A stretch of DNA of 64,000 nucleotides. Source: Isoetes taiwanensis (Eukaryota > Streptophyta > Lycopodiopsida > Isoetales > Isoetaceae). Positions 3,120 through 58,800 of the stretch are shown piece after piece. Numbering within the stretch: the first letter of the stretch is position 1; each line of letters opens with the position of its first letter. The stretch lies in the NCBI GenBank assembly GCA_021234155.1, contig JAJEKV010000139.1, positions 330,809-394,808 on the forward strand, given 5' to 3'. Made by a program: the position numbers and the translations under genes. The notes under the pieces were generated by a model. It searched no databases. It saw only the letters and a list, made by a program, of their open reading frames with translations, and was not told the origin of the DNA.

Positions 3120-3625
3120 ATGAGGTTGCAAGTTTACCACTGCCTCTTCCCCTTCCAGATGTTCCTCTATGACTTGGACAATTTGCTACCAAATGGCCTT
3201 TTCCTCACAATTATAGCACTGAAAGCCCTTTCTGCATTTGGACATTTTGCATTCAAATGTCTGTACATATTACAGTTATAGCAAGGCCCAATATTACCCT
3301 TATTTAAGTTGCTTCCTCTTTTTGCCTTGTATACTTCTGTAGACTGATCATCATCATCAAAGTTAAAATTCTTTTGATCAAACTCCGTCAGCATGCTCTT
3401 TTGACCTTGCAACATTTCTCAACAAAGTTGCTAACTAACTGTTATAAGACATTAACCTGGATAAGGACAATATCTGATACTGATCATTAAGAATAACTCC
3501 AGCTCCATCTAGATCTGCAATAATAGAATCAATTTTTTCAAGGAAATCTGTTAGGTTATCCTTTTCCCTTACCTTAAGTTTCCTCAGCTATTTCTCCAAA
3601 ACATCAATTGGGGAGAGGTATTTGC
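3120..3625 (-). pseudogene. Ty1/copia gag fragment
   Basis: The minus strand encodes a gag-like helix region (LTDFLEKIDSIIADLDGAGV, then NDQYQILSLSR), then stop codons and a frame change, then an acidic linker and a zinc knuckle. The knuckle CYNCNMYRHLNAKC fits CX2CX4HX4C exactly (plus-strand 3230-3300). This is the arrangement of copia gag nucleocapsid. Protease, integrase and RT are not adjacent, so it is a decayed fragment. The knuckle is seen directly; the copia assignment is from family knowledge. Confidence 0.65.
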
Positions 3626-3770
3626 TTCATATTGTCTTATATTATAATGTTATACCATATTGGATTTGGATCAATCCCTACTTTGAATGGTTGAGATCAT
3701 TCGATTGAATATGAAGGCCAAGATTTATTGCACAAGTTCCCATCACCGTGATTGATCATGCTTTGATCCC

Positions 3771-4930
3771 TTAAGGGGAAAGGGAGAAAGAAAAGGGAAA
3801 AATGAAAAAGGGAGGAGGAAAAGAAGAATGTGAAAGGAAAAAATGCAGGGGAAAAAGAGAAAAGGGGAAGAGAGAAGGGCAAAGTGACATGAAAAAAAAG
3901 TTAAGGGAAAGGGAATAGAAAAAAAAGAGAGGAGACGGGAAGGGGAAAAGAGCATCGAAAAAAAGGGGAAGAGGGAATGGGTGGAGAAAGGAGGAAAAGG
4001 GAAGGAAAAAAGGGGAACAAGAAAAGGTTGGCAGAAGGGCATGGGAAAAAAGAAAGGAAGACGAAAAAGAAAAGAGGAGGGGAAAAGAGAATCCAGAAAA
4101 TATGGCATGAGGAAAAAAGAAAGAGGGAATGCAGAAAAGGGAAGGGAGGGAGAGTAAAGGGTGAAGAAAGTGGAAAAGGGAAATGAAAAAAGAGGATAAG
4201 AAAAGGGCATGCAAAAAAAAGGGAAGAGGAAAAGGGTGAGGAAAGGGGACAGGGAAGGGAAAAATAACATGGAAAAAGGGAAGTGAAAGGGAAAAAAAAG
4301 ATGGGAAAATGGAACAAAAAAAGAGGGGAAGAGGGAAAGGTTGGAGAAAGGAGGAAAAGGGAAGGGCAAAGAGGGATCAAGAAAAGGGTGGAGAGAAGGG
4401 AAGAGAAAAGGACATGGGAAAAGGGGAAGGAAAGGAAAGAAAAAGGGAGAAGGAAAAGGGAATCTGGGAAAAAGGGCACGAGAAAAACAGGAAGAAAGGA
4501 GCCGGAAAAGGGGGGACAGGGTGAAAGGGTGAAGAAAGGTGAAAAGAGAAGCGAGAAAAGAGCATGGGAAAGAGAAAAGAAAAAGGGGAAGAGGGAAAGG
4601 ATGGGGAAAAGAGGAAATGGAGCACAGGAGAAAAGTAAAGAGAAAAAATGTGATGGGAAAAAAGGAAATGGAAAAGGAATAGAAGGGGGAAAAGGATAAA
4701 TAAAATAAAAAAGGGCACGGGGAGAAGAGAAAATGGAAAGGAGAAAAGAGAAAAAAAAAGTCCATCAATAAAAGGGAAAAGGAAAAAGAAGGGAAGCGGA
4801 GGGAATGTGGGGTGTGGAACAAGAAAAAAGAAAAAAGAAAAGGGAAAAAAATGGGGGGTAGGAAAATGGGGAAAGGGGAAAAGAAAAATAATAAAATTGG
4901 GGTAAAGCAAATGGCAAATGGAATGGGGGC
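3771..4930 (+). repeat. Long homopurine tract with degenerate repeats
   Basis: For about 1.15 kb the plus strand is almost only G and A, built from gaaaaggg, ggaagaggg and gagaaagg blocks. The sparse C/T bases fall mostly in recurring gcatggg or gacatggg marks (for example near 3886, 3952, 4037, 4207, 4268, 4411, 4562 and 4649). Longer blocks such as the one at 3963 recur at 4319 and 4583, so it grew by tandem duplication. Long open frames here (F/P/L/S on the minus strand, K/G/E/R on the plus) are by-products of the composition. Confidence 0.85.
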
Positions 4931-5499
4931 ACTCATTACATTATTGTTCACTATAGGATCATTTCGACAACCCAAGCATTGCCGATAGCTTTTCATTGGC
5001 GCACTTGCGATCCCTGAATCCCTGTACTTCTAGGAACATTTTCAACTGATCAATCCGGCCACTAAGCCGGACCGACCTTCACTATTCCTTATTGATCTAC
5101 ACTAGGTTATTCTGGCTTTAACCTTTATGGCACCAACCAAATTAGATAATGCATCTATAGAATGCGTCAAACGAATTTCTTAAGAATATAACCATTGAGG
5201 CTATATATTCCAAGTTCCGGACCATGCAATAATCCTTTTTGGTATTTTCATCAGAGTCTCCAACTAAGGATATTGCATCATTTATTTCTGTAGAAGCACT
5301 ATCGAGAACATATAATCCATCATGAAATAGAAGATCGTCTTGAATCTCAGAATATGCACAGATCACATCTGTCGAGAAAATGAGACTGAACCAAGATGTG
5401 AAAGTATTTCTTGAGCCAATAGATTATACATGAAAGATGTTTGGATAGATTCCACTAAAGTTGCACTAAGAGGTGCCCCTATAAAATGAAAGCCATGAG

Positions 5500-6790
5500 C
5501 TACAATCGATCAAGATCTAGCATAGTCTGTGGTTGTGGATCATATGCTGGCTTACGCTTCAGGCATGATCTAGAGACAAAACATCAGGCTTCCTTCAGAG
5601 GGATCCAGGATAATACTTGATCATGAAATCAATGCAATACAAGACTTGAGTATGCCATTGGGCTTGTCAAAATGACTGGGAATTTGAGCCAACTAAAAGT
5701 ATAGCAAATTTCAGTGATCAGTACAGACTATGATCTTATGAGGAAATCCCTCTTGAAAATGTCTCCATTCCTCAAAAGAATTTACTTCGTCAAAGTTTCC
5801 TGTCATAAGTTGGATAAGTGATTTTCGCAGCCTGAAACTTCATGACCATCCTCCTCCTGTGATAATATATCTCCAAGAGCAAAGTCTGAAGCATCTGCTT
5901 CAATGGTATAAAGATGCGAGGGATCTGGATGGGCAAGTACTGGAGCCGAGGTTAAGGCATGCTTCAAGATAATGAATGTCGTTTCAGCTTCAACTATCCA
6001 TCCAAATGGTGTATCCTTCCCATTGAGATATGCCAAACGAAGGGTGATCTCTGAATAAATTTTGGATAAAAATCGATAAACCCAAAAGAGCACTAAACAT
6101 CTCGAACTGAAGGTGGTCTAATTTAGAATTGTATTCACTTTAGCTAGGCACATGGAAACTCTCTAAAGAGTGATGCAATTGCTAAGAACACATTATCCTC
6201 ATCAAACCAGCACTTTTCGACTTGGTATATGTCCCACACTCATGAAGCTTTTGAAGAACCTGTCAAACATGTCTCTCATGCTCCTCGAATGTTTCAAAAT
6301 AAATAAGAATAGCATTCACATATGTGATGACGAAAAGATCCATATTTTTTTCGAAGACATCGTTTGCCATATGCTTTAAGCTGTCCGGACATTGGTAAAC
6401 CCAAAAGGCATGACAATATGCTTGAAATGGCCATATCGACGAGTATAAAAAGTTTTCTTTCATTCTATTCTATTCTATTCCTTCAGGTATTTGGATAAGT
6501 TTATAAGCACCACGGAGATCAATCTTGATAACATAGCATGCACCTTGTAGGCGTTCGGGCAGCTCTAGAATTAAAGACCGAGGATATTGATTTGGCACTG
6601 TAATCTTGTTAAGACAGTGATAATCAACAATAAGATGCAGAGAATTTTTTTTGTTCACAAAAAAGATAAGCGCTTCAGCAAGCAACTGAGAATGTCGGAT
6701 AAGTCCTATGGTGAGATTCTTCTTGTGTGCAATACTTGCAGCGGCTTTATGATCCACTGGAGGGTCTGGCAACAGTATCCACATAGATGG
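5500..6790 (-). pseudogene. Ty3/gypsy pol fragment (RT-RNase H)
   Basis: Reading on the minus strand from 6784 down, the RT fingers and palm appear (VDYHCLNKITVPNQYPR, then KIDLRGAY), then after a frame break the segment with YVNAILIYFETFEEHERHV, then the RNase H start (FGWIVEAETTF, then HPDPSHLYTIEADASDFALG). The order matches Ty3/gypsy RT and RNase H. The polymerase active site, normally YLDD or YVDD in this family, reads YVNA here, so both aspartates are lost. A small ttcta repeat with in-frame stops near 6460 and further stops after 5800 also break it. Gag, protease and integrase are not seen nearby. Confidence 0.8.
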
Positions 6791-6794
6791 GCCT

Positions 6795-7375
6795 AGCGCT
6801 GGTCATTACAGAAGGGGATATTATAATGGGCCTATAGTGTCTAGTTAATGGGAAGGCAATAGATTTGGATGATATGCGGGCAGAGCTTCTCAAATGGGTT
6901 GGGCCTCCGATGGTGCCTGTCCTCACGCCATTATTCAATAGAGCATTGCAAGAGGCTTCGCCTAGCAGTAGACCACGAGTATAGTTGTTCCCACATACAA
7001 GACAGGCAACCCTCACTGCCCAGCCAACTATCGCACAATCATGGTCAGCTCCCTCTTTGCAAGATTATTGGCTGGCATCCTTGAGCACTGGCTGACGATA
7101 TGGGCAGAAGATGCAGAGATGCATGCTCTGACACAGGCAGGCTTCTGGCCCAGACATTCCACCATTGACCATATTTGCACCTTGAGAACACTCATTGAGA
7201 ATAGCAGAAACTGCTAGCAAAACCTGTACTATTGTTTTGTAAAGGCTTTCGACACTGTACCCGAGGACAAATTGTAAGATAGATTGAGGCAGCTAGGGAC
7301 CCCTATCGACTTGAGAAATGCAACATATCGGCTATATGAGCATGCTCTATGCTATATTTTGATTTCAGGTCAAAC
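6795..7375 (+). pseudogene. LINE reverse-transcriptase fragment
   Basis: The plus strand reads, with frame changes and stops, VNGKAIDLDDMRAELLKWVG, then a VP.YK.G block, NYRTIMVSSLFARLLAGIL, QAGFWPRHSTIDHICTLRTL, and finally KAFDTVP with LRQLGTPIDLRNA. This is the RT core of a non-LTR retrotransposon. It stops abruptly near 7375. It abuts the oppositely oriented gypsy relic at about 6790. Related pieces lie at 26525-26830 and 52110-52378. Confidence 0.8.
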
Positions 7376-22021: not shown

Positions 22022-22086
22022 AATCAAGGTGTTTGTTTCTCTCCATGAAGAACCTTGTGGATGCAATTGCTGTTGTGATCAAAATG

Positions 22087-22120
22087 AACAAGGTGACCTA
22101 GCAAACGCACTAATGACCTG
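22087..22120 (+). repeat. Left terminal inverted repeat (34 bp)
   Basis: It starts aacaaggtgacctagc and ends actaatgacctg. It is identical to the reverse complement of 26249-26282. Confidence 0.9.
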
Positions 22121-22476
22121 CATTTGCACCACAAAAAAGAATCTTTCAAAGATTCCCTAAAAAAACCTTAAATTTTGCCACTTTTAGGGGGTCAATTACA
22201 AAAATGGCCCTCAATTTACAATTGCGTGACCCATTTTAGGGTCCAAAGTTACTGGAAATTCTCGCTTTGTTAATTTTACACCTCCAAATTAGGTGTAAAA
22301 TTAGAATCACATTTAGGTGAATTTGGGATGTACCTGGAAAATGGAGAAATTGAAGAGCCACTAGAATCTTGACCAAAACTAAAGGCTAAAATGTGCGACA
22401 AATAAGACAAGCGACAAACAAGACACACCAAGACATTGTGCATGTATACCCATCGCTAAAAATGTTACTGAGCATG

Positions 22477-22793
22477 CTATGTGCACATAGCCATTTAGAA
22501 AAAAAAATTGTCAAGCTATGCGCGCATGGCATGGCAACTTTCTTATTAATGCAGAAGAGGTAAAAAAGATAAATAAAAAGATATCATTTCGCTCATAAAA
22601 TATCGCAGGTTTAAGAGAGGTCCATATATGCACATGTACAGGGTCGGAACTAAAACTAGTAGGTTGTCGAAAAAATTGGGCGGGTAGGAAAAGAACCTAG
22701 TATACGATTGAAAAGAAAAACCAAGAGGGTAGTGGAAAAGATGGGTAGGTAGGAAAAGGACACGGTAGGTAGTGCCCATGCGCCGCATGGGCA
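22477..22793. repeat. Left palindrome cluster
   Basis: Copies: ctatgtgcacatag at 22477-22490, ctatgcgcgcatgg at 22515-22528, and gcccatgcgccgcatgggc at 22775-22793. They match the motif repeated in the right half of the element. Confidence 0.7.
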
Positions 22794-24575
22794 AATCTTT
22801 CGTGATGTGCTATCGCGCCATAGAAAGGCATATTTTTTTTGTTTCGAGTCTTCCCCTTTGTCCCAAAATCGGCTTTAATCGCCGGACTTTGTTCCAAAGA
22901 TCGGCTTATCATGCTTTCATGTGTTTAAGATCATCGGCGCCGATCGCGAAGCCATCAATGCCGATTTCATCCAGATTTCCAAACCCTATTTCTTCAGTCT
23001 TATCGGGTAAGCTTCTCTATCGTCGAACCGAAGCTAAATTTGTTTAACCGGAAACCCAAATTTATTTTCATGTCCGCTCTGTTTTCGGCCTTCCTCAAGC
23101 GTTGCGCTCATTTATTTAAGAAACTTAGCAAAGCAGCGAGGAAGAAGTAAAGAAATTACATGTGAAGTTCAAGGAATCGGGTTGGAAACTTGTGTACTAT
23201 TTATCCGCCCGAAATCTTTGCCGCTTATTATTACATATCGAGCCATGGTTCAGATACAAAACAATTTTGGGTAGGACACGGGAGTCAAGTATGGCGAGCG
23301 TAAAGCTAAGTGAGAATCCTTCCTGTACCTTTTCCGTGATTAATGTGCTTGGATTTTAGTCTTATGTAGATTTCTTTAATCTCGGGTTAAAATTGAAAGT
23401 ATTATACTCCTTTGCAAGTGGATTTTATGTCTATAGCATATTTGCACTTCTTTTAAGGAGACGAGAAGGAAAGACTTTGTTGTGAGCATGCTCCATCATG
23501 TTGCTACGGATGATTCCGATTGTGTTTTCTTTTATGGCCAGGTATACTTCTTTAAATTCTTGCCTTGTTGTGTGTCTCGGTATCAATAATTAATGCATTG
23601 CGATTTTTCGTGTGGGCTCTGTGCGTGCTAGCTTTGCATGATGCCGCTGACGTGTTTCTAGAGATTGGGAAAATGACAAAGTATGCGAGGCATTTACATT
23701 GTTCCCGACGTGTCTTTTGCTATTTTTGTGGGCTCCGCGTTTTCCACGCCGGATCTCACATATATAGATGATGTAACATCTTTGCTTCTTTTTTGGGGAT
23801 GGGTCATATGAAACGTTTTTCCATATTTCACCGGGTTGGCATTTGACATTTTTCTAGATTATTTGGCAATGCTTAAATAGTAATGTTCAACTAATTGATT
23901 GTCACTTAGTAGATTGCAATCATAAAATCATTTCGGCGGCCTTAATTACGTGTGTATCATGTTGGTCGGGAAAGTATGCATTTTAAATAAAGGTAATGCG
24001 ATTTTTAAATAAAGGTGCTATTTATTTGCTTAACCATGAGATTGGATGCAAGATCTTGTTTATTGGTACTTCGCGATGTAGGAGCACCCGTTTGGCTGCT
24101 ATCATCCTGCTTACTCTGTATCTCGGTGGCGAGGCTACGCTTGTTTTTCTTGAAACGAATGTGTTTTAAGCTACAACACAAGATTTTATGGAAACAGTGA
24201 ATGTTTTTGTCCAATTCCACAATTAAGTTATGATAATATTGCGGTCATTTTGCAACTAATTGGAGGTCGCTTTTGCGTGTTCTTTATTCGTTATTGTAAT
24301 TTTGGTCATAAAAATTGCGATAAAACCCACTTTTTGGTTTGAGATCCGATCGATTCATCGCCTTTTTTATATTTTGGTAGTTTCTACCCATGCTCAAGAA
24401 AGATTGTTATAATGTTGTTATAATTCAAAAGATCTAGGATTCAATTATTTCTTGAAGCTTTGAAGGACCACGGGGCTTTAAAAACTTCTTCATCTCTAAA
24501 AAGCTTTTCCTTATGTAGTAGCTATTTTCATTACGTACCATTCAATGGAAAATGATATTAAGAAATTACCTGTTG

Positions 24576-24855
24576 TCTACGGGAGCATAGGCAAAAGCTT
24601 TTAAACTTTGTTGCTAAAAATTTAACTGTGGTCTATGCGCGCATAGGCGAGAGATTTTAAAATTTGTTGTTTGTCTATGCATGCATAAACAAACAATATA
24701 TTCTAAAACTCTAGCCTGTGAATAGGATAGACGCTTATAATTGTAGGTGCTCGCCTATGCTCATAGGCGGGGCATACTATTTAGAAACTCCCGCCATGCG
24801 CATAGATAGGCAATTAGCTAGTTTATTTCATTCATTCTATGCACGCATAACATGT
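24576..24855. repeat. Central palindrome cluster
   Basis: About six copies: ctacgggagcatag (24578), ctatgcgcgcatag (24633-24646), ctatgcatgcata (24675), cctatgctcatagg (24753), catgcgcatag (24794) and ctatgcacgcata (24838). Confidence 0.75.
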
Positions 24856-25339
24856 CTGTGTCCACTCTATGAGCTTTTATGCTTTGGTTCCTATGTTCAT
24901 TAGTGTATAAACTTGGAAAATGTTATTATTTGCAAAGATGCCACAAAGTCAACTTGTAATTGTTGTCCTCGAGTTAAAACTTACAAAGCAAAGCAAGGAA
25001 TTTACCTTTGCATTTGTTAAAGCATGCAACTACTTCTATATACTTATGCAAAGATCGACAATGAGTTTTTGAATGTTTTAATGTCAATTGTATGTTAGTT
25101 GCTTTGTTACGTTCTTGTAAGTTCTAAAATATAATCAGTCTTGCTTTTTAAAATATAATCAATCTTGCTTTTTAGATTGTCATTCAAATGTGTATGTTTT
25201 TTTTTTTTGCATTTCGTATTTATGGTTGTCTTTACAGATGTGCTTGTTTTACGTTGCTATTAGTTTTTTTATTTTATTTTTTACAATCGAGACTAAAAAA
25301 CACACAAAATTTTCAGTTTTTACATAGACAAACAAAAAA

Positions 25340-26056
25340 AACTTTTGCCTATGCGAGCATAAACTCAGACAAACAAAAAAGCTTTTGCCTATAAACTTTT
25401 GCCTATGCATGCATAGACACAGACAAACGAAGAAGATTTTGCCTATGCGCTCATAGACGCAGACAAACAAAAAAAAAAACTTTTCAATGCTGCACGCATG
25501 GACACGCGGACAAAACAGAAAAATATTTTGAAAGAACTTTGTTTTGAGCTTAGACAAAGAAAGCCTCAAACACAAGAGCATTTGGTTATAATGAAAATTA
25601 TCACGAAAACCTTCAAAATCTTGAAGAGGAGAAAAATGTTCCAGAAAGTGAGGAAGTTCACAGGGTTGTGGCATGTTATTTTGGGACATATCAAATTACA
25701 CAGTCTTTGTACTTAGAATGAGTGTATTACTCAAAGATAATGGTCATATATATGGACTTATTATTTATATGCGTGGAGGCAAAAAAAATCTTATCAATAG
25801 CTCTTTTTCATGATTATTTCACAAACCTAGGGTTTTTGAAGGAATATAAATTGTGCCTGTCTATGCACGCATAGGCAAACACTATACACGCATAGAAAAA
25901 CATTCAAGTGCTTTACACGCAAAACACTATATGCGCTCATTGATTCTGATACTAAAAAAGAAGTTACTGCAAAACAAACGTTCCCTTGATATTAAAAAAA
26001 CGTTTGTGAAATGTTAATTCAATTATACTGTCATATCTATGCGCGCATAGACATAT
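25340..26056. repeat. Right palindrome cluster
   Basis: About eight copies, from 25347 to 26056, several set in a repeated phrase acttttgcctatgc-N-gcatagac-acagacaaac. The most perfect is tctatgcgcgcataga at 26036-26051. Confidence 0.75.
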
Positions 26057-26248
26057 TTCTTTTCCCTTGCATTTTAGTGTTAAAAAAAAAGTACTATTTT
26101 TTAGTTTGACTTGAAGCAAAAAATGTCGTCCTCTGTTAAATGTGTACTTTTTGGATTGAAACTTTTTTTTTTGGTGCCCGTTTTTTTTAAAAAAGGTCAA
26201 AAATACCGAATTTACGTGTTTTCAAAAAAGGAATCTGCAATTGCACCA

Positions 26249-26282
26249 CAGGTCATTAGTGCGTTTGCTAGGTCACCTTGTT
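26249..26282 (-). repeat. Right terminal inverted repeat (34 bp)
   Basis: Perfect inverted copy of 22087-22120, followed by aatg at 26283-26286. Confidence 0.9.
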
Positions 26283-26524
26283 AATGCCGGTTTTAAAGAG
26301 CGCTATTATGCAAGGTTAAAGATCCAAAGGGAAGATACAATGTGGCAAAGCAGAGTCATGCATGTGCATTTTTTGCACTCTCAGTGTTTTGATTAAGGGA
26401 AATAGAAGGAAGGACAAAAACTTCAACCTCCAATCCTATCACTAAATCCTCTGGTCCCGTCTCTCCGTTTAGTCTAAAAGAATACTTTTATGATCCGTAA
26501 TATATTTCTTACATATAATAGTTT

Positions 26525-32883: not shown

Positions 32884-34146
32884 TCAAGAACTTGCATTCA
32901 AGAAACCATTGGACGCAATCAAAAAGCCTGCTTGAAGTTTATGTAAGTGTATAAAATCTTCTTCAGGAGCATCCTTGGGCATATTGACAAAGCATGGTAG
33001 AGTTGTCTTCTTCTGGTCCATTCCATCAATGACAACTGATGCATAGCTGACTGGATGCTCTAGTACCTTCTTCCTGTGTTTTGTCAACTTTCTCCTTTCA
33101 AGAGGTTGTTGCTTCCCGTGCTTCTTGAGTTTCTCTTTCAATACATCTGGGAAGAAAAAATATTCAGAAAAAGATTCTAGCATTGAAAAGAACCTGGCGA
33201 CAAGAAGTCTTGGAAGCTTACTTTTAGTATGCAGTGATCTTGCATTCTGTCTTTGAGCTTTTAATTCAGAGCATGTAGCAGAGATAGAGATGCGGCCTTT
33301 CTAGGAATTGTTATACGCGAAAATTCCTTTTTCCATAGCACAGTGAAGTAAGAGTAGCATACATGCCATTACCGGACTCAATATATAAATTCTTTATAGT
33401 TATTATGAGCTTCATGTTTTGTGATGTTATCACTTAAGTGGTACATTGAACTATTAGGCAGAAGATCCTTGAAGAAGCCTTTCATCCAGGAAACACATTG
33501 AAATGCATGAATTCTCAAGATACTTCCCGAATGGCAGTAGTCGTTTATGCCATGATTCTTGTCAAGCCTTTTCTTCATTGTGTAAAGCCTTCTGCTGCCT
33601 AAAGCATGAATCATTTTAAAGGCTATTTGATGGATGGTGTGGCCACTAGCTATGTAAGTAAACTTATCACACTTGTCTGGCCTAATATTGAAGGCTAAGT
33701 AGCCCGTTTGATCTATTAAAGTCATTGAACTGTAGCTATCACAAATCAGTTTCAATTCCCTTAGTCCAATCTCTAGCAAACAAGGTTGTAGACAACAATA
33801 TTTTGTATGTCTTGCTCTCAAGTGCCCATCGTCCATTAGTTTCTTCCTTCTTTGTGATGTACAAGCTTTCTTGTGTAAATCTCATTTGAAGTTGTTAGTA
33901 TCAGAAGCAAATAATTCCAAAAAAATAGTGCATGAATCTATTTGGTGCATAAGTCCATGTTCTGTGCTAAGAATTGAGTCGCCTCTGTGAACCCTGCTCC
34001 CTGTTTTCTGCCCTGCTAGGGTAAGAAAATCCGTCATAAAGAGAAGCAAATCCATCATAAGAAAAGCTTTGGCCAGTGACAAAGAATTCTCAAATACCAT
34101 CGAATTCAGATCATACCTGTGTTGAAACCTCATCCGTCGCTGCCAT
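32884..34146 (-). pseudogene. Decayed multi-exon gene with DGMDQ motif (transposon-associated family)
   Basis: Minus-strand pieces in order: a possible first exon MAATDEVSTQ (34146-34117) ending CAG/GTATGA; a 152-codon frame (33836-33378) with CCLQPCLLE, FTYIASGHTIHQIAFKMIHA and LYTMKKRLDKNHGI; and a 99-codon frame (33183-32884) with SYASVVIDGMDQKKTTLP. From memory this order (a G..VC..AF block, then HGN, then a DGMDQ block) is that of an uncharacterised family scattered through non-seed plants and animals and thought to be transposon-derived. The usual Cys after the G motif reads His here, and the sequence after PKDAPEED no longer follows the family. This family call is from recall and needs a profile search. 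Confidence 0.45.
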
Positions 34147-38260: not shown

Positions 38261-38689
38261 ACATTTACAATAATATACACATTAAGGGAGGGGGGGTGGG
38301 AGTCAAGGGAACTGCTGAGAGAGGAGAAAACGCCGATGAGAAGTCAATGAAGAAGCTGCAAGAAATAGCGATCCCAAATGAAGCAGAGCCACAGAAAATG
38401 CATGCAATGCATGCAAGAGATGCATGTTCGCCCCGATCCGATGGCTCGGATCGATGGGATTATATGTATAAGTAAGTATTATGCGCAATTTGGTAGTATG
38501 TTATAGGAGAACTTGTTATTTTGATTGGAAAAAAAAATAAATAAATAAGTAAAAGAAGGCCCATAACGCACCATAACAAAAACAAGGTGCTGCACACGGA
38601 GGGTTGCCCTCCGATGGCTTGGTTTTTTTTTTGTTTTTTTTTTTTGTTGTTGCCTCGGTCTCGATCTAAACCGCGCCGGAGCTGATGCA

Positions 38690-45239: not shown

Positions 45240-45335
45240 GAGGCATGTTTGAGCCACATGTTACATTTGAGCCTATGTGGTATGTTTGAGCCACATGTCA
45301 CCTTTGAGCGAAGGTAGCATGTTCTAGCCTAGGGG
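45240..45335 (+). repeat. Degenerate outlier of the 19-bp minisatellite
   Basis: Contains ggcatgtttgagccacatgt, ttgagcctatgtggtatg and a further copy, the same 19-bp unit as the array at 46775. A second outlier is at 45770-45862. Confidence 0.75.
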
Positions 45336-46650: not shown

Positions 46651-46774
46651 TGGGGTCTCATCGCAGCCGCGCAAAGTCCTGCCCTTGTTTGACTTAGGGA
46701 AGGTGCCAACGCTTTTGTCAGATCCAATCAGAGAGAGACGTAGAGAGAGGAAGGGAGGGAATGAGGGAGGAAGG

Positions 46775-48635
46775 GAGAGCATGTTGGAGCCTAGGTGGCA
46801 TGTTTGGACCACCTTGGCATATTGGAGCCTGGTGGCATTCCGAAGCCTAGGTGGCATGTTTGAGCCACCTTGGCATGTTGGACCCCAGATGGCACGTTGG
46901 AGCCTGCGTGGAATTTTGGAGCCTAGATGGCATGTTTGAGCCACCTTGGCATGTTGGAGCCTAGGTGGCATGTTGGAACCCGCATGGCATGTTTGAGCCA
47001 CCTTGGCATGTTTGAGCCTAGGTGGCATGTTGGAGCCCATGGCCATCTTGGCATGTTGGAGCCCACATGGCATGTTTGAGCCTAGGTGGCATGTTGGAGC
47101 CAAGGTGGCATGTTTGAGACACATTGGCATGTTGGAGCCCACGTGGAATGTTTGAGCCACCTTGGCATGTTTGAGCCTAGGTGGCATGTTGGAACCTGTG
47201 GCATGTTTGAGCCACCTTGGTACGCCCACTTTATTGGCTCCGAAATTGGTTCGCTGAACCAAGTGGGTTCGCCCAGCTAACCCGGAAGTCACCGGGCGAA
47301 CCCACTTGGTTCGCCTCCGGCCCGGGCGGAGCCTCGCGGGGCGGCGGGCGGCGTGTTTTCCTACCGGGTTCGCCTGGCTAACCCAACCCGGGTTAGTTGC
47401 GTGCTTTGGCAAAAGCGGCAAAAGGGGTAAGCCTACCGGGTTCGGCTTTGGGCAACCCCCGGCCGGGAGTACGGCGTTCTTGTGCCTACCCGTGATTCGC
47501 CGGGCTTAACCCTAGTAGGGTGGCCCACCACCGACGCCCAATCGACGCCTCCTTCCAATGCCGCAGAGGTAACCCGGTTAGGGGTTAAGCTTTTAACCCG
47601 GCAAAGAATGCCAAGTAAGCCAGCCGGTAGCCATAGCCACGCCTGCGACTTCGCTTGGTTTGGGGTTCGGCTTGGGACTCTCGTGGTTCGGCGGGCGAAC
47701 CAGCTTGGATGGCCAACTTCCTTTCGGGTGCCATTCGAAGCACCGACCTTGGTATGTTGGAGCCTAGGTGGCATGTTGGAACATGTGTGGCATGTTTGAG
47801 CCACCTTGGCATGTTGGAGCCTAGGTGGCATGTTGGAGCCCGCGTGGCATGTTTGAGCCACCATGGCATGTTGGAGCCCACGTAGCTTGGGCCACTTTGG
47901 CATGTTTGAGCCACCTTGGCATGTTGGAGCCTAGGTGGCATGTAGGAGCTTGTGTGGCATATTTGAGCCACCTTGGGATGTTTGAGCCTCCTTGGCAGGT
48001 CTTGAGCCTAGGTGGCATGTTGGAGCCGCGTGGCATGTTGAGCCACCTTGGCATGTTTGAGCCTAGGTGCATGTTGGAGCCTAGGTGGCATGTTTGAGCC
48101 ACCTTGGCATGTTGGAGCCTAGGTGGCATGTTGGAATCCACGTGGCACATGTTAGAGCCTAGGTGGCATGTTGGACCCCGCGTGGCAGTTTTGAGTTTCC
48201 TTGGCATGTTTGACCCACCTTGGCATGTTAGACGAGCCTAGGTGGCATGTTGGAGCCATCTTGGCATGTTTGAGTCTAGGTGGCATGTTGGAGCCTAGAT
48301 GGCATGTTTGAGCCACCTTGGCATGTTGGAGCCTAGATGGCATGTTGGAGCCCACGTGGCATGTTTGAGCCACCTTATCATGTTTGAGCTACCTTGGCAT
48401 GTTGGAGCCCGCGTGGCATGTTTCAGCCATGTTGGCATATTTGAGCCACCTTGGCATGTTGGATCCTAGGTAGCGTGTTTGAGCCCACGTGGCATGTTTG
48501 AGCCACCTTGGCATGTTGCAGCCTAGGTGGCATGTTGGAGCCCGCATGGCATGTTTGAGCCACCTTGGCATGTTGGAGCCCAGGTGGCATGTTGGAGCCC
48601 ACGTGGCATCTTTGATCTACCTTGGCATTGTTGCG
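46775..48635. repeat. 19-bp minisatellite with 57-bp higher-order unit
   Basis: Three 19-bp variants alternate: ggcatgttggagcctaggt, ggcatgttggagcccgcgt and ggcatgtttgagccacctt, giving a 57-bp (19-codon) higher-order repeat. Because 57 is a multiple of three, long frames stay open on both strands (for example minus HAKVAQTCHAGSNMPPRLQ). I treat these as by-products. The array is split by an insertion at 47223-47745. Confidence 0.9.
47223..47745. mobile_element. GC-rich foldback insertion in the minisatellite
   Basis: A 523-bp block unlike the array interrupts it. The 9-mer accttggta occurs on both sides (47214-47222 and 47746-47754), a likely target-site duplication. Inside it is GC- and CpG-rich, with a perfect 19-bp inverted repeat (gaaccaagtgggttcgccc at 47256-47274, inverted at 47294-47312) and many gggttcgcc and ctaacccgg phrases. 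Termini show only weak inverted similarity. A 9-bp duplication suggests a MULE-like origin, but no transposase is present. Confidence 0.65.
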
Positions 48636-48639
48636 TCTC

Positions 48640-49590
48640 AAAAAACCATACTTCCTTAAAAAAAACATCTACTTAGAAACTACACGTAGTTATAAAACAC
48701 ACCTGAAAAAACCATATTTCCTTAAGAAATAAGTGTTTAGAAACTACGCGTAATTATAAACCACACAAAAAACTATACTTCCTTAAAAAACAACCACTTA
48801 AAAACTACACCTACTTATGAACCACACCTTAAAAAACTATACTCTATTAAAAAACAACTACTTAAAAATTACACCTAATTATATAAACCATACCTCAAAA
48901 AAACCATACTTCCTTAAAAAATAGCTTCTTAAAAACTGTACCTAGTTACAAACTACACCACTTCAGAAAAGCCATATTTTATTAAAAAACAACCACTTAA
49001 AAACTACACCCACTTATAAACCACACCTCAAAAAACCATACTTCTTTCAAAAACAGCTACTTAAAAACTACACCCACTTATAAACCACACCTCAAAAAAA
49101 ACACCTCAACTTAAAAAATCACACCACTTCATAAAACTATACTTCCATAAAAAACAGCCACTTAAGAACTACACCCACTTATAAACCACACCTCAAAAAC
49201 CCATACTTCTTTCCAAAACAGCTGCTTAAAAACTACACTCACTTATAAACTACACTCACTTCCTTAGAAAACAGCTACTTAAAAACTACACCTACTTATA
49301 AACGACACTTTAAAAACCATATTTCCTTAAAAAATAGATACTTAAAAACAACACCTTATTATAAACCACACCTCAGAAAACAACATCCTTTTAAAAACAA
49401 CTCATCTTTAAAAAAAAAAACTACACTTTCGCAAAATGAAACCACACCTAAAAAAAAACCACACCTTCAAAAAAAAAAAAGCTATAGCTCCTTAAAAAAA
49501 ACCTACACCGTCTTCTTAATAAACCACACCTCCACATAACCACATGTAGAGTTTTTTGAACAACAACATGTGGTTTTTCTTTTACTGTTG
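48640..49590 (-). repeat. Right subterminal repeat array (64-bp period)
   Basis: About a dozen degenerate 64-bp units, with ctcaaaaaaccatacttcct, aaaaacagctacttaaaaac and tacacccacttataaaccac in order. The aaaaactacacc core is the inverse of the left array motif. Confidence 0.85.
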
Positions 49591-55722: not shown

Positions 55723-55806
55723 TGCTAGCTGTGGGGTTTGAACCCACGCGCACATATGTGCAGGCGATCTTAAGTCGCCCCCCTTAGACCACTCGGGCAA
55801 GCTAGC
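55723..55806 (-). tRNA. tRNA-Leu (UAA anticodon)
   Basis: The minus strand folds as a complete class II tRNA. The acceptor GCTAGCT pairs with AGCTAGC before discriminator A. The A box is TTGCCCGAGTGG, the anticodon stem-loop is GGCGA-CTTAAGA-TCGCC with anticodon TAA, the long variable arm is TGCACATATGTGCG, and the T arm is GTGGGTTCAAACCCCAC (B box GGTTCAAACCC). TTTTT follows a few bases downstream (plus 55712-55716) as a Pol III terminator. There is no intron. The sequence type is nuclear, unlike the intron-bearing chloroplast gene. Confidence 0.95.
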
Positions 55807-55809
55807 TTA

Positions 55810-58800
55810 TTGTTAAATGAATCACTAATATTATAATATAGTCAACTAAAGATCTGAGCTATGAGTTTATATCTTAGCTTTGTCGCTAGTTAGTTGTATC
55901 CTTGCTTATAGGCAACTCATATGGGCAATCCAACTACTCAAATGAATAAGAAGTGAGGTCTTGATGAATGATATGAAGAATAGAATAGAATATAAAGGAG
56001 ATCGTAATCCACTATAATGAATAAATTTTGTAAGCGATTTTTTTTATTCTCATATTTATTTATTTATTTATTTATTTTGTTTTTTTTTTTTTTCGGAGCT
56101 CAATATTGCGCCATGGGTCTTGCCTCTGTTCTGATGGAAAGAATGTCAATTTGCAATCTTTTGAGCGCTAAGAAGAAGAAGAATAAAAGTTTTAATGTCC
56201 ACTAGGTCAGATACCACAACAACATTGCGCTATGTGTAATGTCCCCAATCATTTTACTTAAAAAGATTTTAGCATATATTGTATTATTATGTTTGAACAT
56301 GCTACATAAGAAAATATGTACTTCCATACATAGGTGTTGAAGTCCCTCAAGAAAGACTTTGTAGTGTTATATATTTTGGATAAGCGTCTATAATACTCGT
56401 AAACCACGGGCACCCTATGATTTCCGCTTTTTTTCCTGTATTTTTAATTCTTGGTAATTTTTGGTTTACCGATTCTAAGCGGCGCCGCCCAGAAGTTCTT
56501 AAAACATCAAGATTTCTAACAGAAGCATGAAGATTTTTCCCTCATGATGAAGAAGGCTATGGCTATGGCCTCGCTATGGGCTATGCCTTTGTATTTTCGG
56601 TATGTTTAAGTGTTTAACATATGCTGTTGAAGCAGAAGCTATGGCGTCTTTGTTTTGCAACGCGGTTAATCGGTGGTTTCAAATGAAACCGGTGGCGGTG
56701 CCACCACTCCGCCGCCGTGGCACCGGGCCACCAATTTCCACCGAAACCACCCTCTTGGTGGCACGTTTCCAAATACAAAAAGGCCATGCTTTTCCTTCTC
56801 AATGTCTCCATATAATGCTTCTTGATCTCCCCTTTCTTATATCCCGAGAGAGAGGGAGAGGGAGAGGTAGATGGAGTGTTGAAGCTGTAGAATAAAAAAT
56901 CGAGAGGAAGATGTGCCATTACCGTGGATGGGCCGCGTCCAACAAAGAATAAACAATTGTAATACAATGTGATACCTTAATAAGGGAAAGGAAACAACTG
57001 CTAAAATCGAGCTAATTGATTCCAAATCCATGCAAACACATATATGCTCCATATATAAATGAAACCAAGAATCTAACTCGCATAATGTACCTCGATTATG
57101 CATATTGGTAAAATAGTCTAGAACATGAATGGAAGAGATAACAAGGTGCAAAGCACTGTGGATTGCCCCCAAAATGCTATTATGAATAAAGCTTTGTCAG
57201 CTGTCTGGAGATACTCTCTCAACTCATTTGTATAAGCAATTGTTTCGAATATCTCGTGAACAATTGTATAGCTACTTGTAGGGTGGGGTGAAGATAAAAG
57301 ACCTTTAATCTTTTGATACAGGAAAGCTTGGATACATATGAGGATCTGTTATCCATACTTGCATGAGGGTTTTTTGCAGCTATTTGGATTAGCCATGATT
57401 CTAAATACTTCGAAATGCTTAGCACTATCATTTGCGATGCTTAGTGTAGTATATATTAAAGAGATTGTCTTGAATTTATTTTTGTATTGTATATTAAAAC
57501 AAGTCTTTGTACTATGATAGAGTGTATAAGTCGACTGGTAGGTTGCTGGAAAGTCAAAGTCAAAGTTGTGCAAAATCGACGAAAAGCTACATTTAAGAAC
57601 ATGCTATGGGGGTGTTTGACAAAATGTTGTGTCATCTCATAGCAAGGTTCGTATTGTGTTGTTTGTGTAATGTATGTTTTCATTCAAGTTTGAAGTATAA
57701 CGGAATTCTATGGTGGAAATTCAAATAAAAATTATAATTGCTTGCTCTAAGCTTGTTGATGCTCTTGATATTTGAAGTGCGTATTTATATTGGCTATCGA
57801 AATTTTATGATATAAAAGGATTGATAGGCTTCTTGATGGTTGAGGTCTATATACAATGGATCAACGTTAGTGAAAAAAGTTGTTGGTCTATATACAATGT
57901 TGGCTTACCCACACATATGACGAATCAATGAGCATGCGTGAATACATCCATCCTCTTCAGGTGTATAAGCACGAGCAGAAAGCCCTTGAAATGGGTTTTA
58001 AACTTATTCGTGTTGGTAGCCACTTGACCAATGCTCCAGTTATGCATTGTCCTGAAGAATGAACAACCTTTCTAGGCATTACTTAAGTTTGTCACAACCC
58101 AACTTCAAATATGGCAAGCAAGAGCCCTACACAACTGTAATATACTCCATTGTCTATATTTTTCTCTAGCTTTAGATGTTAAAGTTGGAAGTGAAATAAA
58201 TAAAGGGATAATTTTTGCAATACATGATATGCATTAGTGTTGGGTTGCTCTAGAACATAACTTCATAACAATATCCTTATTAAGATTAAGACCAAATGCT
58301 TATTTTTTAATTTGTAATTTCTACTTTTATGAAAACGTAGGCTTTCATCCCTAAACATTTCTAAATAACATCATCATGAAGCGGAAGCAAATCAAGATAA
58401 TTGGTGTGAAACTAAAGGGGGCAAGAGAGACTGGTAACAGAAAAATTATTGAATGCCTTGAATTTATGAATTGGTATATCTGTTTCTATGAACTTGAATA
58501 GTTGGACCGCTATGCATTTTCAGCTAAATAGTGCTCTACATCAACCCTATGTTGTATTTATTGTAAGATTTTTGTAAGATGTGCATCTATGACAATGATG
58601 CAAATATGTAATGTTGTAAACTTTGGCCACTTTTTAATTAAATTGGGTGCTAAAGAGTGTCAATGCATACATAGGAAGTGAACTTAGGATTGTTGCATAG
58701 TGATAACTTCTAAGTATATGTACACGGTTCCTAACAAAGCAATATTATATTCCAAAAGTATTCTTTAGAACAAAGCCCAACAAACTAGAAATATTCTTCC

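Follow-up and report, generated by a model that had tools for sequence, protein, structure and literature searches.

The window analyzed here, a stretch of 64,000 nucleotides from the genome of the quillwort Isoetes taiwanensis (contig JAJEKV010000139.1), contains at positions 22087-26282 a DNA transposon that carries many copies of a short interrupted palindrome, CTATGC-NN-GCATAG. Taken as a whole, the sequence evidence is best read as indicating that these palindromes are probably parS-like docking sites for a ParB-methyltransferase encoded by the element's own family, which may thereby mark or de-silence the element. The argument turns on coding relatives in the same genome, among which the palindrome changes together with the clade of the ParB protein.

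A palindrome array within a high-copy transposon

The element holds 4 copies of CTATGC-NN-GCATAG with perfect arms and 10, 12 and 15 copies when up to one, two and three arm mismatches are allowed; in 100 mononucleotide shuffles of the element the corresponding means are 0, 0.01, 0.08 and 1.3. Across the whole window there are 18 matches at two or fewer mismatches against 2.16 expected, a count reached by none of 100 dinucleotide shuffles, and all 10 window sites at one mismatch or less fall within the element. An earlier note on this DNA had described about 17 palindromes and proposed that they be counted against shuffled sequence. The excess is real and far above chance, although the number is nearer 12 to 15. 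The ends, clusters and interior of the element are as follows.

22083..22086, no strand: left target-site duplication AATG, the same as the right flank
22087..22120, plus strand: left terminal inverted repeat (TIR) of 34 bp, AACAAGGTGACCTAGCAAACGCACTAATGACCTG, followed by the L-type subterminal CATTTG (from the sequence and genome copies)
22477..22529, no strand: left palindrome pair, at 22477 (CTATGTGCACATAG, two mismatches) and 22516 (CTATGCGCGCATGG, one mismatch)
22640..24560, no strand: interior in which no transposase, ParB or methyltransferase is encoded, mostly common to the copies L009, L012, L004 and L007
24577..24850, no strand: central cluster, at 24577 (two mismatches), 24633 (perfect arms), 24675 and 24837
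25349..25456, no strand: right-central cluster, at 25349, 25403 (perfect arms) and 25443, partly within a 54-bp tandem repeat
25861..26050, no strand: right subterminal sites, at 25861 (perfect arms), 25882 and 26037 (perfect arms)
26249..26282, minus strand: right TIR, a perfect inverted copy, with the R-type subterminal TGGTGCA reading inward (from the sequence)
26283..26286, no strand: right target-site duplication AATG, matching the left flank

Direct comparison of the two 34-mers shows that they are identical and inverted, and AATG flanks the element on both sides. The perfect TIRs and the possible 4-bp duplication of the earlier note are therefore both confirmed. Among 19 elements examined at both ends, 18 have identical 4-bp flanks, the exception being L020 (L numbers denote loci fetched from the genome), and these flanks are AT-rich (58 of 72 bases). 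In the assembly of 1,658,258,908 bases in 1110 contigs, to which all genome-wide counts refer, the search for further copies proposed in that note found the TIR at three or fewer mismatches in 288 forward and 299 reverse places, 587 in all, and its reversed control in none. The bases after the TIR also distinguish the L from the R end in genome copies.

The window element is a cut-and-paste TIR DNA transposon of a high-copy group, within which it belongs to the clade here termed A, and the window copy is a non-autonomous member of a family with full-length coding relatives. It matches the 9-kb coding elements described below at its ends only, and none of 15 transposase, ParB and methyltransferase protein parts has a tblastn match in it at E <= 1e-3; the same is true of all 11 other fetched copies, L003-L013, at that threshold. 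One gene-less clade-A element, L004, contains PPR-repeat reading frames at 3244-4106 on the minus strand (PF13041, E 3.6e-51), which suggests gene capture. Many PPR genes are reported in the genome paper of I. taiwanensis (PMC8566536), whose main text does not mention 'DNA transposon', 'terminal inverted' or 'Sola'.

Coding relatives

End pairs about 8.9 kb apart occur in the TIR lists, and each of three that were fetched holds two divergent genes. Members of about 9 kb from clades A, C and D have the same or similar TIRs, 4-bp duplications and this pair of genes, so coding relatives of the kind anticipated by the earlier note are present. One gene encodes a DUF7869 protein; in the product of the other, a ParB-like domain precedes a DNA-methyltransferase domain of the beta-type N6/N4 class. 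Both genes are also present in clade B, whose ends and duplication were not found, a D-type TIR interrupting L024 at 9712.

The DUF7869 gene lies between both ends in elements of clades A (L019-L021), C and D. Matches to the Pfam model are strong (E 6.8e-47 in L023, 2.5e-54 in L025, 7.4e-53 in L024, 6.8e-52 in L022 and 3e-35 in L028), and five aligned sequences share the motifs VxDGMDQ, QLDNTTRENKNQ and HTHDQID with little or no variation. The best 150 of 9908 genomic candidates were scored and all lie above the cut-off, while the domain is absent from all 14 control genomes searched and is not named in the open-licence literature searched. Because of its position in the element and its conserved acidic motifs, the DUF7869 protein is presumably the transposase. 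The transposase region has a weak, below cut-off match to the RFX winged helix (E 0.013-0.13) and no match among solved structures, and its alignment has no confirmed relative in viral contigs, in scans that start from short peptides.

The fetched 9-kb copies are partly broken; the DUF7869 exon of L019, for example, contains 5 stops. With broken copies included, the pooled ratio of non-synonymous to synonymous differences (pN/pS, 15 pairs each) is 0.69 for the DUF7869 exon, 0.64 for the middle exon of the transposase, and 0.38 and 0.53 for the two methyltransferase exons. An unbroken DUF7869 frame of 737 amino acids lies at 4000-6210 on the plus strand of L023 (C1033:561500-570500), a locus that is a candidate for either an array-poor relative or a host-retained gene. 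Within the window, a second relic of the same superfamily, a transposase-like stretch, occupies 32929-33923 on the minus strand, about 6.6 kb to the right of the element; its amino-acid identity to the clade-C protein reaches 58% over 212 residues (tblastn E 1.4e-70).

Turning to classification, Sola1 elements make 4-bp target-site duplications, and the group shares with them both this duplication length and a ParB-methyltransferase gene on the opposite strand, the latter being known in one Sola1 element and not superfamily-defining. It is the duplication and the accessory gene that point to Sola1, a group that the earlier note, which had seen no match to the common plant superfamilies, had not named. 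Membership of VANDAL, a family of the MULE superfamily with a VANC protein, is ruled out by the DUF7869 protein and the 4-bp duplication.

One palindrome for each ParB clade

Each of the four clades has a palindrome of its own: CTATGC-NN-GCATAG in clade A (CTATGCnnGCATAG, CTATGCGCGCATAG), GTATTC-NN-GAATAC in clade B (GTATTCnnGAATAC, GTATTCCGGAATAC), GTATGA-AT-TCATAC in clade C and GTATAA-AT-TTATAC in clade D (GTATAAATTTATAC). All four share the 6+2+6 form sTATnn-NN-nnATAs. Exact copies on one strand of the genome number 2128, 7377, 64 and 12556 for A to D, respectively, and the reversed-pattern controls 4, 104, 11 and 17. Clade D exceeds clade A in palindrome copies as well as in places with an L-type TIR (563 + 518).

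Individual loci carry the palindrome of their own clade almost exclusively. At one or fewer mismatches, L024, a more distant element with about 52% ParB identity, has no CTATGC site and 18 sites of GTATTC-NN-GAATAC, while L025/L027 have 7 of GTATGA-AT-TCATAC and L028 has 25 of GTATAA-AT-TTATAC. Over eight sequences, each contains 7-25 sites of its own type and 0-4 of the others (shuffle means 0-0.05); the 4 are type-D sites in clade C, whose palindrome differs from that of clade D by one base per arm. From the best 150 of 2113 ParB candidates, 15 further loci of 4.7 kb each were drawn across the range of identity, and 13 of these have 3 or more sites of one and the same type.

In a ParB tree of 23 rows, the 7 clade-B rows form one group (support 100/98), clades C and D are sisters (97/96), and the 12 clade-A rows group with two array-less rows (100/99). 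Palindrome labels require 5 changes on this tree, the minimum being 4, and none of 200 shuffles was as low; near-copies favour this test, though three well-separated groups still remain. Palindrome type thus follows the ParB tree, and from this co-variation we infer docking by ParB. The TIR cores of clades A, C and D are alike (AACAA[ACG]GT..GCACT) while their palindromes differ, which makes the TIR-binding transposase an improbable reader of the palindromes.

The ParB-methyltransferase

The methyltransferase part of the accessory protein matches PF01555 (E 5.4e-15, 8.3e-12 and 1.2e-10; 42.2, 46 and 56.4 bits against a curated cut-off of 26.7) and lies after the ParB-like part, beyond probable introns. 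In the genome, the best 150 of 1444 candidates were scored, all over the cut-off, and at two places the domain is near whole (3-219 and 3-220 of 221) with two internal stops in each alignment, which were taken for an intron. Motif IV precedes motif I, the order found in beta-type methyltransferases, and motif I is intact (FSGSGTT). Against phages, the methyltransferase exon finds DNA methylase matches in 353 records at E <= 0.01, the best at 1e-5.

The ParB assignment comes from more distant similarity. By hhalign, two plasmid ParB proteins are matched over 137 columns by four transposon ParB parts (E 9.5e-5, Prob 58.6) and over 74 columns by another alignment built from seven such parts (E 3.8e-5, Prob 70.7), with thin profiles in both cases; the transposase alignment, used as a control against the same profile, gives E 0.44. 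ParB models match two of the four parts, L024 and L022, both weakly in PHROGs (E 0.011-0.24) and through TIGR03764 of NCBIfam (E 0.0019 and 0.027). In a plasmid tblastn, all four matched records are annotated as ParB at the place concerned, though each at E 3-7; the two plasmid proteins used with hhalign come from this set. No relative of one ParB open reading frame was found in phages, and the ParB alignment has no confirmed relative in viral contigs or prokaryote genomes; since these latter scans start from short peptides, distant prokaryotic or viral relatives can be missed. Compared with solved structures, the ParB profile yields only weak, unrelated-looking matches (best E 0.026).

The clade-A ParB exon is under purifying selection (six copies, 15 pairs). 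Synonymous and non-synonymous differences stand at 9 versus 1 between L019 and L020 and at 12 versus 2 between L019 and L014, the least favourable pairs being L014-L016 (2 versus 2) and L020-L016 (4 versus 3). Compared with the DUF7869, transposase middle and methyltransferase exons, strong constraint is seen in the ParB exon only.

Centre and placement of the sites

Constant arms around a free centre had been proposed in the earlier note, but the centre is not free. Among 98 perfect-arm sites from 22 clade-A sequences (21 loci and the window element), GC occupies the centre in 73, GT, AC or AT in 22, and something else in 3. Another sample, of 223 clade-A sites, was drawn without conditioning on positions 6-9. 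Here one centre base departs from GC in 53 sites and the other in 55, with CpG-type transitions making up 33 and 40 of these; for the adjacent C6 and G9 there are 31 and 34 changes, 16 and 17 of them CpG-type transitions. Clade-B centres are mostly CG, CA or TG, as in CpG decay, and the centre is AT in all 7 clade-C and all 25 clade-D sites. As the clade-A centres are dominated by GC and altered by CpG-type changes, and those of clades C and D are fixed, the centre is a specified part of the site that decays largely by CpG transition and in which change is somewhat more tolerated than in the arms. The earlier description is thus only partly right. Outside the palindromes, CpG columns of five gene-less copies diverge by 0.22 versus 0.07 for other columns, which fits host 5-methylcytosine methylation.

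Stretches that match another clade's protein make up 26-47% of each of six coding loci, and 89 of the 91 sites fall outside them. The remaining two, L022 3338 and L024 4262, are in the ParB gene and by inspection at the same point, where the frame seemingly enters an intron. The sites occupy the shared promoter region of the divergent genes, probable introns and the vicinity of the ends. Among the matches listed, neighbours within 130 bp are most commonly 41-42 bp apart in clade A (8 of 16) and clade B (14 of 26), and in clade D 31-32 bp (11 of 38) or 62-63 bp (8 of 38) apart. Over the clade-A loci, 39-42 bp accounts for 54 of the 137 spacings under 200 bp. These values come close to whole numbers of helical turns, though tandem duplication makes them non-independent, and clade C is spaced otherwise.

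Proposed docking by the ParB-methyltransferase and its rivals

Dimeric ParB proteins bind parS sites, which are palindromic. Given this and the clade-specific palindromes, docking by the ParB-methyltransferase is the simplest account. A dimer of the element-encoded protein would dock on the palindromes of its clade, in arrays often spaced by about whole helical turns, and docking would confine the enzyme to its own family. Once docked, it may methylate or otherwise de-silence the element and regulate the divergent promoters, and gene-less copies such as that of the window, which keep their arrays, would be served in trans. The effect of docking, whether methylation, relief of silencing or promoter control, is drawn by analogy from VANC and is accordingly the more conjectural part. 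More tentatively still, and on balance doubtfully, vascular-plant transposons may possess a prokaryote-type epigenetic system resembling ParB-parS, in which clade palindromes recruit a self-encoded N4-methylcytosine or N6-methyladenine methyltransferase that marks the family's own copies, gene-less ones included, and shields them from silencing by host cytosine methylation; fast joint change of protein and palindrome would then divide the group into separate recognition clades.

Several findings weigh against this account. The usual catalytic motif of such enzymes is [DNS]PP[YFW]; because motif IV is DIPY in clades A and C and DIPH in clade D, and not the usual DPPY, methyltransferase activity is uncertain. 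Similarity to ParB is weak and the hhalign profiles are thin, the ParB parts of L025 and L028 match no ParB model in PHROGs or NCBIfam, and Pfam's ParB matches none of the parts. Arrays are not universal either: two of the 15 added ParB loci (L033, L034) have none, L029 has 3 sites, none with perfect arms, and the intact-looking transposase locus L023 has one perfect-arm and one two-mismatch site in 9 kb. Two further points of this kind, the linkage of both proteins in one element and the partly tandem arrays, whose arms in close copies diverge no less than their flanks, are taken up with the rivals that they favour.

With both proteins in one element, co-variation with ParB may also be co-variation with the transposase, which would then be the reader. 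Under this rather unlikely explanation, the palindromes would be internal sites of the transposase or of its N-terminal helix-turn-helix part, serving synapsis or promoter control, with the methyltransferase as an unrelated passenger. Subterminal repeats do act as transposase sites in some plant transposons, and the weak winged-helix match and the presence of some sites near the ends are in keeping with this. Against it, the clade-A TIR lacks such a palindrome, the palindromes do not share the likeness of the A, C and D TIR cores, and many sites lie kilobases from the ends, in probable introns and the shared promoter. An array for a transposase or silencing factor, as suggested in the earlier note, thus gives way to the element-encoded ParB-methyltransferase as the likeliest binder that we infer.

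Selection on the sites themselves bears on a second rival, in which the arrays are passive, functionless expansions of tandem repeats copied along by the spread of the family. Several clusters are indeed tandem, including repeats of 54, 56 and 21 bp in the window, and for arrays of such partly tandem make-up counts alone are no proof of selection. Across three sets of non-autonomous copies, the arms diverge no less than the 20-bp flanks (0.038 versus 0.031, 0.019 versus 0.016 and 0.031 versus 0.010), being lower than the flanks at 11 of 15, 4 of 12 and 2 of 8 sites, respectively. A five-copy set gives 0.048 for arms, lower than the 0.080 of all other columns (0.117 for centres), but its circular-shift test is not significant (134 of 500). 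Close gene-less copies therefore show no constraint on the arms, as would be expected if single copies are not maintained.

Constraint is seen at deeper divergence alone. L035-L037 have 65-72% DNA identity to L019 over the ParB-methyltransferase gene (blocks 5927-7180 and 7368-8207 of L019, plus one extra 38-bp aligned piece in L036). Their upstream regions and the stretch between the blocks cannot be aligned, yet CTATGC-NN-GCATAG sites, many of them exact, are found there; L036 and L037 each have a single site within an aligned block. Retention of the clade-A palindrome where non-coding DNA is otherwise unalignable, the existence of isolated copies outside tandem arrays, and the palindromic 6+2+6 form of all four clade sequences make passive expansion improbable. 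The earlier suggestion of dimeric protein sites under constraint accordingly gains in its first part, through symmetrical, clade-specific replacement, and is restricted in its second to the deeper comparisons.

Least probable of all is a host factor, such as a transcription factor of RY/B3 type or a silencing protein, for although the sites lie in promoters and the CATGCATG-like cores of some clade-A sites resemble RY elements, that core is one centre variant found in 3 of the 98 perfect-arm sites, the motif differs by clade within one genome, and a single factor is not expected to follow the ParB tree. Hairpin or cruciform function was set aside, the dyads being short. Docking of the family's own ParB-methyltransferase remains the favoured reading.

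Other features of the window

GC-rich arrays at 46743-48633 consist of a degenerate 19-bp unit (GGCATGTTGGAGCCTAGGT) in about 23 and about 45 copies with a 57-bp higher-order period, and related units occur at 45243-45323. Adjoining them at 48637-49475 are AT-rich tandem arrays (AAAACTACACCCACTTATAAACCACACC-like) with periods of 17, 32, 64, 165 and 199 bp. About 1.2 kb at 3746-5029 is strongly purine-rich on the plus strand, with skews of 0.36/0.37 in 4001-6000, and a low-complexity reading frame at 1122-1821 of L024 has a similar make-up. Three mutually similar AACAAGGTGC-type ends, at 1625-1660, 38581-38616 and 57140-57175, perhaps belong to another family with a similar terminus. A tRNA-Leu (TAA) gene lies at 55723-55806 on the minus strand.

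Comparison with known systems

The recognition half of the proposed system resembles prokaryotic ParB-parS, with ParB proteins of the SPI-7/ICE type on plasmids. The shared part would be the ParB-like domain, at the hhalign level given above, and parS is a palindrome of similar length to the element sites. The quillwort version differs in residing in a eukaryotic transposon, in being joined to a methyltransferase and in having many sites arranged in arrays.

Transposon-borne ParB-methyltransferase genes have been reported from algae, including a brown-algal Sola1 element; Sola1-1_Ec32 of Ectocarpus carries a gene for a ParB-like and N4/N6 DNA methyltransferase protein opposite its transposase, and the authors suggest that the product may bind and modify its own element (PMC12477816). 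The accessory gene thus lies on the strand opposite the transposase in both cases, though Sola1-1_Ec32 is brown-algal and 21.5 kb long. The main text of that paper contains neither 'palindrom' nor 'tandem array' nor 'binding site', and among the top-ranked matches in open-licence papers no report was found of such elements in land plants or of palindrome arrays. The kind of element is known from algae; the new part is the cis-acting, clade-specific palindrome arrays. Sola2 elements with Fanzor, as described in PMC3627910, likewise combine 4-bp AT-rich duplications with an accessory protein carried by the transposon, but the accessory is Fanzor1 and the hosts are amoebozoan.

The closest functional analogue is the VANC/VANDAL system of Arabidopsis, with a prokaryote-type modification protein in the place of VANC. 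As far as PMC5735166 and PMC10398659 describe it, VANC motifs are short, family-specific and dense in non-coding DNA, lie within tandem repeats both upstream and in introns, recruit a self-encoded protein and change with the family. They differ in being non-palindromic (YAGTATTAY, AGTTGTCC/AGTTGTAC), and VANC is not described there as a ParB or a methyltransferase. With thousands of candidate sites, four specificities and, for each coding part, at least 150 scored copies in a single land-plant genome, recognition and marking by these enzymes become directly testable. If the proposal is true, the quillwort elements would add a second example, of independent evolutionary origin, of sequence-specific anti-silencing of the VANC kind, and they might be a source of plant N4/N6 DNA methylation.

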